64,000 bases of DNA, from assembly GCF_014642675.1 (NCBI RefSeq), contig NZ_BMIS01000008.1:62001-126000 (forward strand). The letters run 5' to 3'. The DNA comes from Nesterenkonia cremea (GTDB lineage: Bacteria > Actinomycetota > Actinomycetes > Actinomycetales > Micrococcaceae). This document shows positions 31,877 through 37,286 of the stretch, in pieces; the stretch's first letter is position 1, and each line of letters starts with the position of its first letter. The translations under genes and the position numbers were made by a program. The notes beneath the pieces were generated by a model. It was not told the origin of the DNA. It saw nothing but the letters and a program-made list of their open reading frames with translations, and made no database searches.

Positions 31877-31934
31877 GGACTTAGGGGGGGGTGTTCTCCA
31901 ACGATTCAGGGTATCAGCCGATTCCCTGAGCTCC

Positions 31935-32966
31935 TCAGCCGCCGGACCTCTCCTCAGGGACAGGCACAGGCAGCCCGAGATGCTCCCAGGCGGCATCGGT
32001 GGCGATGCGCCCACGCGGGGTCCGGGCCAGGAATCCTTCCCGGACCAGATAGGGCTCGGCCACCGTCTCAACGGTCTCAGTCTCCTCGCCCACCAAGATG
32101 GCCAGCGTGGAGAGCCCCACCGGTCCCCCGCGGAATTTGGTGCACAGCGCCTCCAACACGGCGCGGTCCAGGCGATCCAGGCCGCGACGATCCACCTCAT
32201 AGGTGTCCAGGGCCTCGGAGGCCGCGCTGCGCCCGACATCCTCCACGCTGTGGACCAGTGCCCAGTCGCGCACGCGGCGCAGCAGTCGGTTGGCGATGCG
32301 GGGCGTGCCGCGGGATCGGGAGGCGATCTCCGCGAAGCCCTCAGTGGAGACGGACACGTCCAGCATGGCGGCCGAGCGGCGCAGGACCAGCTCGAGCTCC
32401 TCGGTGCTGTAGTACTCCAGGTGCCCGGTGAAGCCGAAGCGGTCGCGCAGCGGACCGGGCAGCAGGCCGGCGCGGGTGGTGGCGCCGACCAGGGTGAAGG
32501 GCGGAAGCTCCAGTGGGATGGAGGTGGCCCCGGCACCCTTGCCCACGATGATGTCCACCCGGAAGTCTTCCATGGCCATATAGAGCATCTCTTCGGCAGG
32601 GCGGGACATCCGGTGGATCTCGTCGATGAACAGGACCTCTCCCTCGGTGAGCGAGGAGAGGATGGCCGCCAGGTCCCCGGCGTGCTGGATCGCGGGCCCA
32701 GAGCTGATCCGCAGGGGTGCGTTCATCTCGCCGGCGATGATCATCGCCAGCGTGGTCTTGCCCAGACCGGGCGGACCGGAGAGCAGGACATGATCTGATG
32801 CCGCACCGCGCAGCCGCGAGGACTCCAACACCAGCGAGAGCTGTCCGCGCACCGTCTTCTGGCCCACGAAGTCGTCCAGGGCTTTGGGACGCAGGGCCGC
32901 CTCCATGGCCTTCTCCTCGGCAACGGGAGAACTGCCCACCAGTTCGCGCGGGTCCTCTGTGCTCAT
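31935..32966 (-). CDS. ruvB: Holliday junction branch migration ATPase RuvB
   Basis: A 343-residue AAA+ motor. Walker [12 protein letters not shown] near 64-75, Walker [10 protein letters not shown] near 117, sensor-1 [10 protein letters not shown] near 163, and the C-terminal winged helix ending [14 protein letters not shown]. It drives RuvA-bound junctions apart for RuvC to cut. Its first four bases overlap the ruvA end, so ruvA-ruvB are coupled. Confidence 0.96.
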
Positions 32967-33592
32967 CGGCCGCCTCCAGGCCCTCCGAGGGAGCGCAGCG
33001 TGTGGCGCAGGACCTCGGAGACGTCCTTGCCGGCCAGCTCAGGCTCAGCCTCCAGGACTTTGTCCACCGCGGTCTTGGCGTCCTTCTCCGTCCAACCCAG
33101 GGAGGTCAGCGCCTCACGCACCTGATCCACGGTCTCGTCCTGCGGGGCAGGCTGTGCGGCGGCGGGATCGGCAGAGACCTCCACCTGCTCGATGACCAGC
33201 TTGCCAGCCAGCTCCAGCAGGATGCGCTGGGCGGTCTTCTTCCCGATGCCCGGCACTTTGGTGAAAGCGGCGGTGTCCGACTCGGTGATGGCCTGACGGA
33301 CCTCTGCCGGAGTGTGCACGCTCAGCACAGCCAGGGCCAGCCGCGGCCCGACCCCGGAGATGGAGAGCATCGTGGTGAAGATCTCCCGCTCCCCCACATC
33401 GGCGAAGCCGAAGAGCAGCGGCGCATCATCCTGCCGGGGCACGAAGCTGGTCTGCAGGCGCGCCTCGGAGCCCACGCGCAGCTGCCCCAGGGTCTGGGCC
33501 GTGGCGGTGACCTCGAGCCCGAATCCGGAGACCTCCACGACGGCGTGGTCGAGGGCCACATGGAGGACTTCACCGCGGATCGAAGAGATCAT
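32963..33592 (-). CDS. ruvA: Holliday junction DNA helicase subunit RuvA
   Basis: A 209-residue junction-binding protein. It opens [12 protein letters not shown] as in the family (OB-fold), has [20 protein letters not shown], the helix-hairpin-helix [12 protein letters not shown] and [16 protein letters not shown], and a C-terminal RuvB-contacting three-helix domain. ATG 33592 is preferred over the adjacent GTG 33595; AGGTG is upstream. A LexA-box-like site lies at 33620-33635, between this gene and ruvC. Confidence 0.94.
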
Positions 33593-33619
33593 CACTCACC
33601 TAACAGCCGGAGCATCAAT

Positions 33620-33635
33620 TAGAACAGACCTTCGA
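33620..33635 (-). promoter_or_regulatory. LexA (SOS) box-like site upstream of ruvA
   Basis: TAGAAC-AGAC-CTTCGA matches ten of the twelve defined positions of the actinobacterial SOS box TCGAAC-N4-GTTCGA (one mismatch per arm). It sits 28 bases before the ruvA start in a 46-base gap. ruvAB genes are SOS genes in many bacteria, which supports but does not prove the assignment. Confidence 0.4.
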
Positions 33636-33638
33636 ATA

Positions 33639-34295
33639 CTAACGCACCCCGCGCTCGGCCTCCCGCCAGGCACGCTGGGCGGGTGTCAGAGCGGCCTTCT
33701 GCTTCTCGGCCGCCTTCTGCAGGGACGTTCGAGCTCCCTGGTGCGTGCGTGTCCCCGCGGACATGTCGAAGCGCGCCCCGATGCCGGAGCGCCAGGCGTG
33801 GCAGATGGCCACGGCATAGGCATCGGTGGCGTCCACCGGTTTGGGCAGACCCGGCAGCTTCAGGATGCGCTGGACCATGCGGGCCACTGCGTCCTTATCC
33901 GCGCCGCCGTCGTCGGTGACCGCCGCCTTGATCTCCGAGGGGGTGTGCCAGGCCACCGGGATGCCGCGCGCCGCGGCGGCCGCGATCACCACTCCCGAGG
34001 CCTGGGCGGTGCCCACCACAGTGGGCGCATTGGCCGAGGCGAAGACCCGCTCGACGGCCAGGACGTCCGGCGCGTAGCTGTCCAGCAGCTTCGCGGCGGC
34101 GCGCTGGATGGCCAGGATCCGCACGGCGAGGTCCTGATCCGAGGAGGTCCCCTTGACCTCCACATGCACCGACTCGCCGGTGCGGTTGCGGTTCATCTCC
34201 ACCACGGCGAAGCCGCAGCGGGTGAGCCCCGGGTCGACTCCCAGGATGCGCTGTGCGACCAGGGAGCCACCCGCCGAGCCGGAGACCGGAACCAT
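33639..34295 (-). CDS. ruvC: Crossover junction endodeoxyribonuclease RuvC
   Basis: A 218-residue resolvase. LGVDPGLTRCGFAVVE near 18-33 holds the first catalytic Asp, VERVF near 82 the Glu, and VDATDAYAVAICHAW near 155 the last acidic residues, so the site looks complete. About 35 residues of Lys/Ala/Gln-rich tail follow the nuclease domain (QKAAEKQKAALTPAQRAWRE), longer than in enterobacteria. Start ATG 34295, 13 bases after yebC. Confidence 0.93.
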   Translation of the reverse strand: MVPVSGSAGGSLVAQRILGVDPGLTRCGFAVVEMNRNRTGESVHVEVKGTSSDQDLAVRILAIQRAAAKLLDSYAPDVLAVERVFASANAPTVVGTAQASGVVIAAAAARGIPVAWHTPSEIKAAVTDDGGADKDAVARMVQRILKLPGLPKPVDATDAYAVAICHAWRSGIGARFDMSAGTRTHQGARTSLQKAAEKQKAALTPAQRAWREAERGVR

Positions 34296-34308
34296 CTGGC
34301 TGCCCCGC

Positions 34309-35070
34309 TCAGCTCTCGGCGTCGAGCGCGGCCAGGGTCTCCTGACTCAGGTCCGCGTTGGTGTGGATGGCCTGGACGTCGTCGAGGTCGTCGAGGGCAT
34401 CGTGGAGCTTCAGGAACTTCTTGGCGTCGGCCAGCTCCAGATCCACCTTGATGTCGGAGATGAAGGCGACCTCATCGGAGTCGTACTCGATGCCGGCCTC
34501 CTCCAGTCCGGAGGTCACGGCCCGCAGATCGCCGGGCTCGGCCTGGACCTCGAAGCGGCTCTCCTGCTCCAGGACATCCTCGACGCCGGCCTCCAGCACG
34601 GCGGCCAGGACGTCGTCCTCGGTGAGGCCCTCGGCGTGCGGCACAGTCACCACACCCTTGCGCTGGAACATATATGCCACCGAGCCCGGGTCGGCCACAG
34701 TGCCGCCCGAGCGGGTCACCGCAGTGCGCACGTCGGCGGCGGCACGGTTGCGGTTGTCGGTGAGGCACTCCACCAACAGGGCGGAGCCGGCGGGGCCGCG
34801 CACCTCGTAGGTGATCTCTTCGTACTCGACGGAGTCGCCGGTCAGACCAGCACCGCGCTTGATGGCGCGATCGATGTTGTCGTTGGGCACCGACTCCTTC
34901 TTCGCCTTGGAGACGGCCAGATCGAGTGCCGGGTTGCCGGCGGGGTCGGGCCCGCCGTTGCGTGCGGCGACCTCGATCTGTTTGATGTAGCGCGCGTTGA
35001 TCTTGGCGCGCTTGGCATCGACAGCAGCCTTGCGGTGCTTGGTGTTGGCCCATTTGGAGTGGCCGGCCAT
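34309..35070 (-). CDS. yebC: YebC/PmpR family protein (translation-stalling relief or transcription factor)
   Basis: A 253-residue member of the TACO1/YebC family. It begins [22 protein letters not shown], contains [15 protein letters not shown] near 60-74, and later [16 protein letters not shown] and [11 protein letters not shown], all standard landmarks. Family members bind DNA or ribosomes; some relieve stalling at polyproline stretches. It heads the minus-strand run yebC-ruvC-ruvA-ruvB. Confidence 0.93.
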
Positions 35071-35145
35071 AATTCTCCTCGTGTCTGTCTGCGACGTGAC
35101 GCTTCAGCGCCGCTTCCCTGGAGCAGAAGCGCCCACGGCGCTGAA

Positions 35146-35168
35146 AGTTGTCTGAAACAACTGTTCGT
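35146..35168. promoter_or_regulatory. Overlapping inverted repeat and LexA-box-like site between yebC and the M3 peptidase
   Basis: AGTTGT (35146-35151) and ACAACT (35157-35162) form an inverted repeat. Overlapping it, 35153-35168 reads TGAAAC-AACT-GTTCGT, whose complement ACGAAC-AGTT-GTTTCA fits ten of twelve positions of the SOS box variant TCGAAC-N4-GTTTGA. It is 83 bases upstream of yebC and 40 upstream of the peptidase. Confidence 0.35.
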
Positions 35169-35207
35169 TACTCTGCTTCCAAGACTATCGGAGAGAGAGG
35201 CCTTCAC

Positions 35208-37286
35208 GTGGCAGCTGAGCTTGACTACGGATATCCGGATCCCGCACTGCACACCGCCGCACAGGGAGACGGCACAGGGCAGTGGCGCGATGACCGCTGG
35301 GTTCCCCAGACCCGTGAGGGGCTTGATGCCCACCGGGCGGAGATCGAGGCCATCGCCGCCGATCCGTCTCCGGCCACCGTGGAGAACACGCTGCGCCCCC
35401 TCGGCCGGGCCGGTGCCCTGCTGCACCGCACCCAGCGGGCCTTCTCCTGTGTGTACTCCGCCGACGCCGATGAGGTCCGCCGCTCGGCGCGCAGCACTCT
35501 GGCGCCGGAGCTGGCCGCCCATCAGGACTTGCTGCGGCTGCACCCTGGGCTGCATGCCCGGCTCACCGAGCTGCACGACAGGATCGCCCGGGATGAGACT
35601 CCGGCGAGCCCCGAACAGCGGTGGTTCCTGGAGCAGGAGCTGCAGGCGGCCGATCTGGCCGGCGCCGGCCTGGGACCTGAGCAGCAGGAGTCCCTCCGCG
35701 CTCTGAACCAGGAGCTCTCCTGCGAGGAGACCGCCTATGGGCAGCTGCAGAACCACGAGGCCGCCCAGGCCGCCGTCCATGTCACGGAGGAATCGGCCCT
35801 GCGCGGTGTGCCCGCCGCCCAGAAGGAGGCGCTGGCCCAGGCCGCACGCGAGGTCGGATACGACCGGGGCTGGCTGCTCACGCTGACCATGCCCGTCCAG
35901 CAGGGGCTGCTGAGCTGGCTGGAAGACCGGACCACCCGTGAACGCCTGCACCGAGCCTCCATCGCCCGTGGCTCCCTGCCGGGTGAGGACGGGCGGACCA
36001 CCCGGCAGATCGGAGCGCGGATCGCCGTGCTGCGAGCCCGCCGCGCCCAGCTGCTGGGCTTCGAGAATCACCTGGAGTCGGTGCTGCCCGGACGCACCGC
36101 TCCGAACCGGTCCAGCATCGAAGAGATGCTCGGTCGGATCGCCTCCGGCTCTGCAGCGCGGCTGGCCGATGAGATCGGACGGATCGCTGAGGCGGTGCGC
36201 CGGGCCGAGCCTGAGGTGCAGCAGCTGGAGCCCTGGGACATCAGCTTCGGTCAGCAGCTGGTGGAGTCAGCTCGGCAGGATGATCGCACCGATGACGACG
36301 CCGAGGGCAAGGGCAGCGCTGGAGGGGTGCCGCCGGAGTCCGCACTGCAACGGGTCTTCCACGCCGCCGGCCAGGTCTACGGGATCAGCGTGGTGGAGCG
36401 CGAGGACCTCCCCGGCTTCGCCCCCGGCGCACGAAGCTTCGAGGTCTTCGAGGGCACAGCCGGGACTCCCGGCACCGGGATGGGGCTGTTCCTGCTGGAT
36501 CTCTATGCGCGGCCCACCAAATCCGGCGGCGCCTGGATGAACTCCTTCTCCGTGGCCTCCAGCCTGACCGGCACACGGCCGGTGGTCATCAACTGTCTCA
36601 ACGTCACTCCGGCCGCGCCCGGGGCTGAGACGGTGCTCAGCGACGATGAGATGCGCACCCTGTTCCATGAGTTCGGCCATGCCCTCCACGGGCTGCTGGC
36701 CCAGGCCGAGTTCGAGGAGCTATCCGGCACGGCGGTCCCCCGGGACAACGTCGAGTTCCCCTCCCAGGTCAACGAGATCTTCCAACATCTGCACAGCGGC
36801 GAGCTGGAGCAGCCGGGGCGCACTCGTGCCGAGGAGGAGCTCTGGGGAAAGGGGCTGAGCACCTTCGAGCATGTGGCCGCCGTGGTGCTGGACCTGGCCT
36901 GGCATACGCTGAGCCCAGAGCAGGCCGAGGCCGCCGCTTCAGATCCCGAGGCCTTCGAGCAGGTGGCTCTGGACGCCTGGGGGCTGGACCATCCGCTGGT
37001 CCCACCGCGCTACGGCAGCGGCTTCTTCAAGCACATCTTCGCCGGATCGGGATACGCCGCCGGCTACTACTCCTACCTCTGGGCCGAGGCCTTGGCCGCC
37101 GACGCGGCCGAATGGTTCCGCGAGGAGGCAGCGGCGGGCCGGCTCATCGAGGCTGGCCGGCACTTCCGCCGGGAGCTGCTGGCCCGCGGCAACACGCGGG
37201 ATCCCTACGAGTCCTACCGGTGCGCCGTCGGGAGGCAGCCGCAGACCGAGCCGCTGATGCGCTCGCTGGGACTGCAGCCGGTGTGA
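35208..37286 (+). CDS. M3 family oligopeptidase (peptidyl-dipeptidase Dcp type)
   Basis: A 692-residue cytosolic zinc peptidase of the thimet oligopeptidase/Dcp family. The metal site HEFGHALHG has His487, Glu488 and His491, with the third ligand expected in the following PSQVNEIFQH helix (about 521-530). The C-terminal GSGFFKHIFAGSGYAAGYYSYLW is typical of Dcp. GTG 35208 is chosen because GAGAGAGAGG lies seven bases upstream; an in-frame TTG at 35148 would overlap the inverted repeat. It occupies the place where pdxT/pdxS and PIM genes usually lie in relatives. Confidence 0.88.
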   Translation: MAAELDYGYPDPALHTAAQGDGTGQWRDDRWVPQTREGLDAHRAEIEAIAADPSPATVENTLRPLGRAGALLHRTQRAFSCVYSADADEVRRSARSTLAPELAAHQDLLRLHPGLHARLTELHDRIARDETPASPEQRWFLEQELQAADLAGAGLGPEQQESLRALNQELSCEETAYGQLQNHEAAQAAVHVTEESALRGVPAAQKEALAQAAREVGYDRGWLLTLTMPVQQGLLSWLEDRTTRERLHRASIARGSLPGEDGRTTRQIGARIAVLRARRAQLLGFENHLESVLPGRTAPNRSSIEEMLGRIASGSAARLADEIGRIAEAVRRAEPEVQQLEPWDISFGQQLVESARQDDRTDDDAEGKGSAGGVPPESALQRVFHAAGQVYGISVVEREDLPGFAPGARSFEVFEGTAGTPGTGMGLFLLDLYARPTKSGGAWMNSFSVASSLTGTRPVVINCLNVTPAAPGAETVLSDDEMRTLFHEFGHALHGLLAQAEFEELSGTAVPRDNVEFPSQVNEIFQHLHSGELEQPGRTRAEEELWGKGLSTFEHVAAVVLDLAWHTLSPEQAEAAASDPEAFEQVALDAWGLDHPLVPPRYGSGFFKHIFAGSGYAAGYYSYLWAEALAADAAEWFREEAAAGRLIEAGRHFRRELLARGNTRDPYESYRCAVGRQPQTEPLMRSLGLQPV

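Follow-up and report, generated by a model that had tools for sequence, protein, structure and literature searches.

The ruv locus examined here raises the question of whether LexA boxes frame the operon yebC-ruvC-ruvA-ruvB, one lying upstream of yebC and another between ruvC and ruvA, and whether the internal box would let ruvAB respond to DNA damage apart from yebC-ruvC, as proposed in a first-pass annotation of the same DNA. The locus is contained in a window of 64,000 bp (the whole stretch of DNA analysed, C8:62001-126000) from a 3.08-Mb genome in 39 contigs belonging to the genus Nesterenkonia (Micrococcaceae); among the matches listed for its RuvC, the first 18 loci are all from Nesterenkonia or the close Garicola, at 74-85% identity. 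Open reading frames and Pfam domains bear out the proposed gene order on the minus strand, and the two LexA-box-like sequences are present at 33620-33635 and 35153-35168 as reported. The locus comprises the following features:

31935..32966, minus strand: ruvB (ORF; Pfam RuvB_N and RuvB_C)
32963..33592, minus strand: ruvA (ORF; Pfam RuvA_N and RuvA_C), with its ATG at 33592, 27 bp past the box, and its start aligned in relatives
33620..33635, minus strand: predicted LexA operator (SOS box) before ruvA, TCGAAGGTCTGTTCTA on the coding strand, based on matrix score and conservation
33636..33641, minus strand: predicted -10 hexamer TAGTAT of an internal ruvAB promoter, its first three bases forming the ruvC stop codon (33641-33639)
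33639..34295, minus strand: ruvC (ORF; Pfam RuvC), stop codon at 33641-33639, without a LexA box upstream
34309..35070, minus strand: yebC (ORF; Pfam TACO1/YebC), 13 bp ahead of ruvC
35146..35162, no strand assigned: inverted repeat AGTTGT-CTGAA-ACAACT, overlapping the proposed yebC site with a different centre
35153..35168, no strand assigned: proposed yebC LexA site, judged a probable chance match (9/12, 4.5 bits)
GTG start at 35208: peptidase M3 gene, divergent from yebC (sequence and Pfam)

Both sites had been described as matching ten of the twelve positions of the consensus. This holds for 33620-33635 (TAGAACAGACCTTCGA, consensus TCGAAC-N4-GTTCGA), whereas 35153-35168 (TGAAACAACTGTTCGT) matches nine and reaches ten under a looser consensus only. 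Across the window, two positions match at 10/12 and 32 at exactly 9/12, such that a match of the latter quality is common. We scored both sites with a position matrix, as the first-pass annotation had suggested, on a broader base: the training sites came only from the recA and lexA promoters across Nesterenkonia, with no ruv site included. Stretches upstream of 30 recA and 29 lexA loci of the genus, each contributing at most its two best positions with no more than two mismatches apiece, provided 84 training sites (37 distinct). Because resemblance to the consensus guided the choice of these sites, the matrix somewhat overrates near-consensus sites in absolute terms; the two proposed sites differ widely in score. 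The site at 33620-33635 scored 19.9 bits, ranking first among 63,985 window positions (runner-up, 15.0 bits), and no position attained this score in 3 Mb of sequence generated by a third-order Markov model; for reference, training sites score 12.6-28.3 bits, and the genome's own recA and lexA boxes 26.4 and 23.3 bits, respectively. Its two departures from the consensus recur in recA or lexA boxes of relatives. Conversely, 35153-35168 scored 4.5 bits. The Markov sequence attains this score 331 times per Mb, corresponding to a chance expectation of about 0.04 in its own 137-bp gap and about 1,000 in a genome of this size. The recA/lexA matrix, on its genus-wide base, thus upheld one of the two proposed sites and not the other. 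No LexA box was found in the yebC-ruvC interval, where the best matrix score is -8.5 bits. A match of 15.0 bits inside yebC (34664-34679) was dismissed as a coding coincidence, the same position in the other Nesterenkonia loci compared scoring 5.4-9.5 bits.

The genome encodes one LexA match and one RecA match, and both genes carry boxes at their own promoters, perfect upstream of recA (C2:54695) and 11/12 upstream of lexA (C2:65617). A strict pattern, TMGAANNNNNNTTCKA, occurs at 16 places in the genome, compared with 6 for the reversed control, and 33620-33635 is one of the 16. Other places adjoin recA, lexA, uvrA, a DUF222 gene, a radical-SAM gene, and a DUF6504/DNA-polymerase-III-alpha pair (dnaE2-like by context), while several lie inside unrelated genes (by eye L7/L12-like, NusB-like and amylase-like). 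Strict-pattern scores range from 15.4 to 26.6 bits, with one place inside a ribosomal-protein gene at 20.6 bits. Since matches inside unrelated genes score at or above the level of the ruvA site (up to 20.6 bits), score alone is no proof of function, and it is conservation and position that carry the case for this site.

Additional LexA-type boxes were also observed. The radical-SAM gene on C5 (L008:5-1540) possesses a box of 26.6 bits at its start, and its match to the intein-splicing domain PF14890, at 32.1 bits, falls below the 35.8 cut-off. On C2, boxes of 24.8 and 22.3 bits occur at the DUF222 gene and uvrA, respectively (L288, L004). Two LexA-like boxes (21.9 and 20.6 bits) lie 41 bp apart at C16:33242-33298 (L296:1501-1557), upstream of a short ORF that appears truncated-integrase-like by eye, near the contig end. 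Many Nesterenkonia lexA promoters (L146-L173) comprise two or three LexA boxes, with a separation that is frequently about 105 bp.

Conservation across the genus points strongly to the internal site. We found ruvC in 28 of 30 genus genomes, the remaining two being 65% and 82% complete, and all 28 possess a box between ruvC and ruvA, scoring 16.9-25.2 bits. The box is retained while the surrounding sequence and spacing change, its distance to ruvA varying from 16 to 121 bp. A TANNNT hexamer precedes the box in each of 29 distinct Nesterenkonia/Garicola sequences, ending 2 bp ahead of it in 27 and 0 bp ahead in two, as would be predicted were LexA to cover the start of transcription. The ruvC stop codon forms the first half of the hexamer in 13 of these 29 sequences, the window included. 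Among other Micrococcaceae the spacing between hexamer and box varies more, being 2 bp in 24 of 55. Against an internal ruvAB promoter, no -35 element was recognised and a simple promoter scan did not call it; a simple scan of the minus strand from 31900 to 35300 also revealed no terminator-like site. Taken as a whole, the window's strongest score, retention throughout the genus and in most family members examined, and a position directly after a -10-like hexamer make it very likely that 33620-33635 represents a real LexA operator. Together with a box at ruvAB and none at ruvC (19.9 versus -8.5 bits), these observations support, at the level of sequence, the earlier proposal that an internal site lets ruvAB respond to damage apart from yebC-ruvC.

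We therefore favour, with high confidence, a reading in which 33620-33635 would act as the LexA operator of an internal ruvA-ruvB promoter, yebC-ruvC would be LexA-independent, and the site upstream of yebC would be a chance match. In the regulation that we infer, LexA bound just past the -10 hexamer would cover the transcription start and keep the internal promoter shut, until RecA filaments forming on damaged DNA bring about LexA self-cleavage and ruvAB is induced. Lacking a LexA box, yebC-ruvC would be transcribed at a steady, LexA-independent level from ahead of yebC, with read-through supplying basal ruvAB. This suggests that these bacteria may be able to respond to damage with more of the RuvAB repair motor but no more of the RuvC cutting enzyme. 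It would also place ruvAB within the predicted Nesterenkonia SOS set, beside recA, lexA, uvrA and dnaE2-like genes.

To place this arrangement in a broader context, box placement was surveyed across actinobacterial ruv loci, with a box called at scores of at least 10 bits, or at least 5 bits with 7 of 8 core positions. The sample covered 56 of 149 genomes of the family, 41 of 110 of the order outside the family and 46 of 147 of the class outside the order. From 212 scored loci (46, 53 and 113 from successive searches), 10 belonging to other phyla and two second hits of one locus were dropped, and 18 with identical protein sets were merged, leaving 182 distinct loci. A box was called at ruvA in 120 of these (two by hand, where the box overlaps the ruvC end), at ruvC in 47, at neither in 15 and at both in none. 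Boxes precede ruvA in 118 of 177 regions versus 2.1 expected from shuffles; the shuffle expectation before ruvC is 1.5 of 178. The 15 loci without a called box, two of which belong to the same family, count against LexA control of ruvAB. Raw CAGAACGTCTACTCCA-type matches near ruvC in other genera were rejected, as they fall in the 3' part of yebC and vanish once scanning is confined to the sequence past the yebC stop codon.

Placement also follows taxonomy. Outside the order, 42 of 46 loci carry the box at ruvC, with four at neither and none at ruvA; within the order and outside the family, it occurs at ruvA in 29 of 41, at ruvC in four (one of which, L251, is weak and poorly covered) and at neither in eight; and within the family and outside the genus, 47 of 49 loci possess it at ruvA and two at neither. 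Named loci with the box at ruvA include those of Arthrobacter, Glutamicibacter, Trueperella, Arcanobacterium, Actinomyces and Boudabousia; that of Janibacter has it at ruvC, and one Actinomycetaceae bin at neither. Gene spacing differs correspondingly: loci with the box at ruvC have ruvC and ruvA overlapping or almost abutting (no more than 15 bp apart in 43 of 46), and where the box is at ruvA, the ruvC-ruvA gap exceeds 15 bp in 118 of 120 loci. The median distance from yebC to ruvC is 25 bp among 119 box-at-ruvA loci versus 117 bp among 32 box-at-ruvC loci. It seems that the operator has changed position, separating the control of ruvAB from that of yebC-ruvC. A FastTree phylogeny of the three proteins requires at least four changes between the two placements; with deep branches partly weak and gain indistinguishable from loss, a single early move followed by reversals is an interpretation of this tree rather than a result. 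We nevertheless lean slightly towards a shift from the front of ruvC to the front of ruvA early in the order of Micrococcaceae, during which ruvC would have settled close behind yebC and the overlap of ruvC and ruvA would have opened, such that damage would raise the RuvAB motor without the RuvC cutter. If true, this would constitute a rewiring in another phylum, parallel to the one in E. coli and some vibrios, and would suggest that selection generally favours an inducible RuvAB that works without RuvC, e.g. in fork rescue.

Alternative explanations were weighed against this reading. The framing arrangement, in which both sites are LexA operators, 35153 controlling yebC-ruvC and 33620 controlling ruvAB, appears very improbable. 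Although the upstream site is located in the divergent yebC/peptidase gap and keeps nine of twelve consensus positions, it fails the matrix test, its 4.5 bits being met 331 times per Mb at random, and the symmetry seen at 35146-35162 is that of a different inverted repeat. The site is also absent from the aligned place (alignment by eye) in the closest relative, G158 (RuvC 92%), whose sequence upstream of yebC differs. The best score there, 6.2 bits, just passes the loose box call and could be taken to favour framing, but it falls at a different place, within a repeat region. Another genus locus (L097) shows a 10.5-bit match upstream of yebC; overall, called boxes occur in 6 of 157 regions upstream of yebC versus 4.1 in shuffles, about equal. 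With its low score, lack of conservation and shuffle-level frequency, 35153-35168 was rejected as a LexA box and is probably a chance match; of the two sites proposed, the analysis settles which one is likely to be real. Two local features were noted in passing: the 35146-35162 repeat forms a short hairpin in the predicted fold of the yebC leader that is not notable (z-score -1.3), and where the window has this single inverted repeat, G158 (L094) carries tandem CACAGTTCAGCTGTTC-like repeats.

Alternatively, the ruvA site might bind LexA without setting ruvAB output, the damage response being dominated by read-through from yebC or by a RecA-independent activator such as PafBC, a possibility that we regard as unlikely, if less so than framing. 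The title of a 2010 study by Dawson et al. speaks of RecA-independent induction of M. tuberculosis ruvC, reportedly even though its SOS box is well placed. The simple scan showed no terminator in the ruvC-ruvA interval, and mycobacterial PafBC regulon members include RuvA and RuvC according to passages of PMC8223512. Against this explanation, the long conservation of the box at the -10 hexamer argues that repression matters. A PafBC-type core, TGTCRGTG, precedes yebC, ruvC or ruvA in none of 29 Nesterenkonia loci, which constitutes a weak test given that it precedes recA in only 2 of 30. The least credible explanation is that the palindrome at 33620 arose by chance or serves a different regulator. 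A looser 12-position pattern allowing two mismatches occurs at 162 places in the genome versus 139 for the reversed control, so that a 10/12 match is not rare and means little by itself. This explanation would nonetheless have to accommodate a matrix score unmatched in the window, retention in all 28 genus genomes where ruvC was found, a fixed relation to a -10-like hexamer, and a sequence of the same type as the recA and lexA boxes. LexA control of an internal ruvAB promoter accordingly remains our preferred reading.

This kind of system is already known. Among the papers listed by our literature searches, none deals, judging by title or abstract opening, with a LexA operator in the ruvC-ruvA interval of Micrococcales or Actinomycetaceae, and the either-or distribution in actinobacteria likewise did not surface in these listings; an earlier prediction may exist in regulon databases or subscription papers. 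As described in passages of PMC3323433, E. coli places ruvAB and not ruvC under SOS control, a division shared with Nesterenkonia, where it is predicted from sequence. In E. coli, however, the operon is split and ruvC is separate, and the box is of another sequence type; in Nesterenkonia, ruvC lies next to ruvA and its stop codon is overlapped by the predicted -10 hexamer. Among Actinobacteria, Streptomyces venezuelae ruvC-ruvA is under SOS control by LexA ChIP-seq and RNA-seq, with the consensus tCGAAC-N4-GNNCGa, as given in parts of PMC9380542. The site listed there lies ahead of ruvC (-23), so that ruvC and ruvA rise together, whereas that of Nesterenkonia lies ahead of ruvA. Similarly, passages of PMC8151990 report that RuvA, RuvB and RuvC of M. 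tuberculosis rise after mitomycin C and describe them as SOS-box regulated; all three Ruv proteins respond there, in contrast to a Nesterenkonia ruvC without its own box.

A parallel in layout is the ruvCAB operon of Vibrionaceae, for which passages of PMC3323433 present a predicted internal LexA site and a presumed secondary promoter before ruvAB, an internal placement shared by the site predicted in Nesterenkonia. The same passages indicate that control of ruvC was apparently lost in some vibrios, and infer that ruvC is under weaker selection for SOS control than ruvAB. According to this source, some Vibrionaceae possess sites before both ruvC and ruvAB, a combination seen in none of the 182 actinobacterial loci examined. 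This either-or placement, at ruvA or ruvC and never at both, would make the actinobacteria a natural test of the benefit gained from inducing RuvAB without RuvC.
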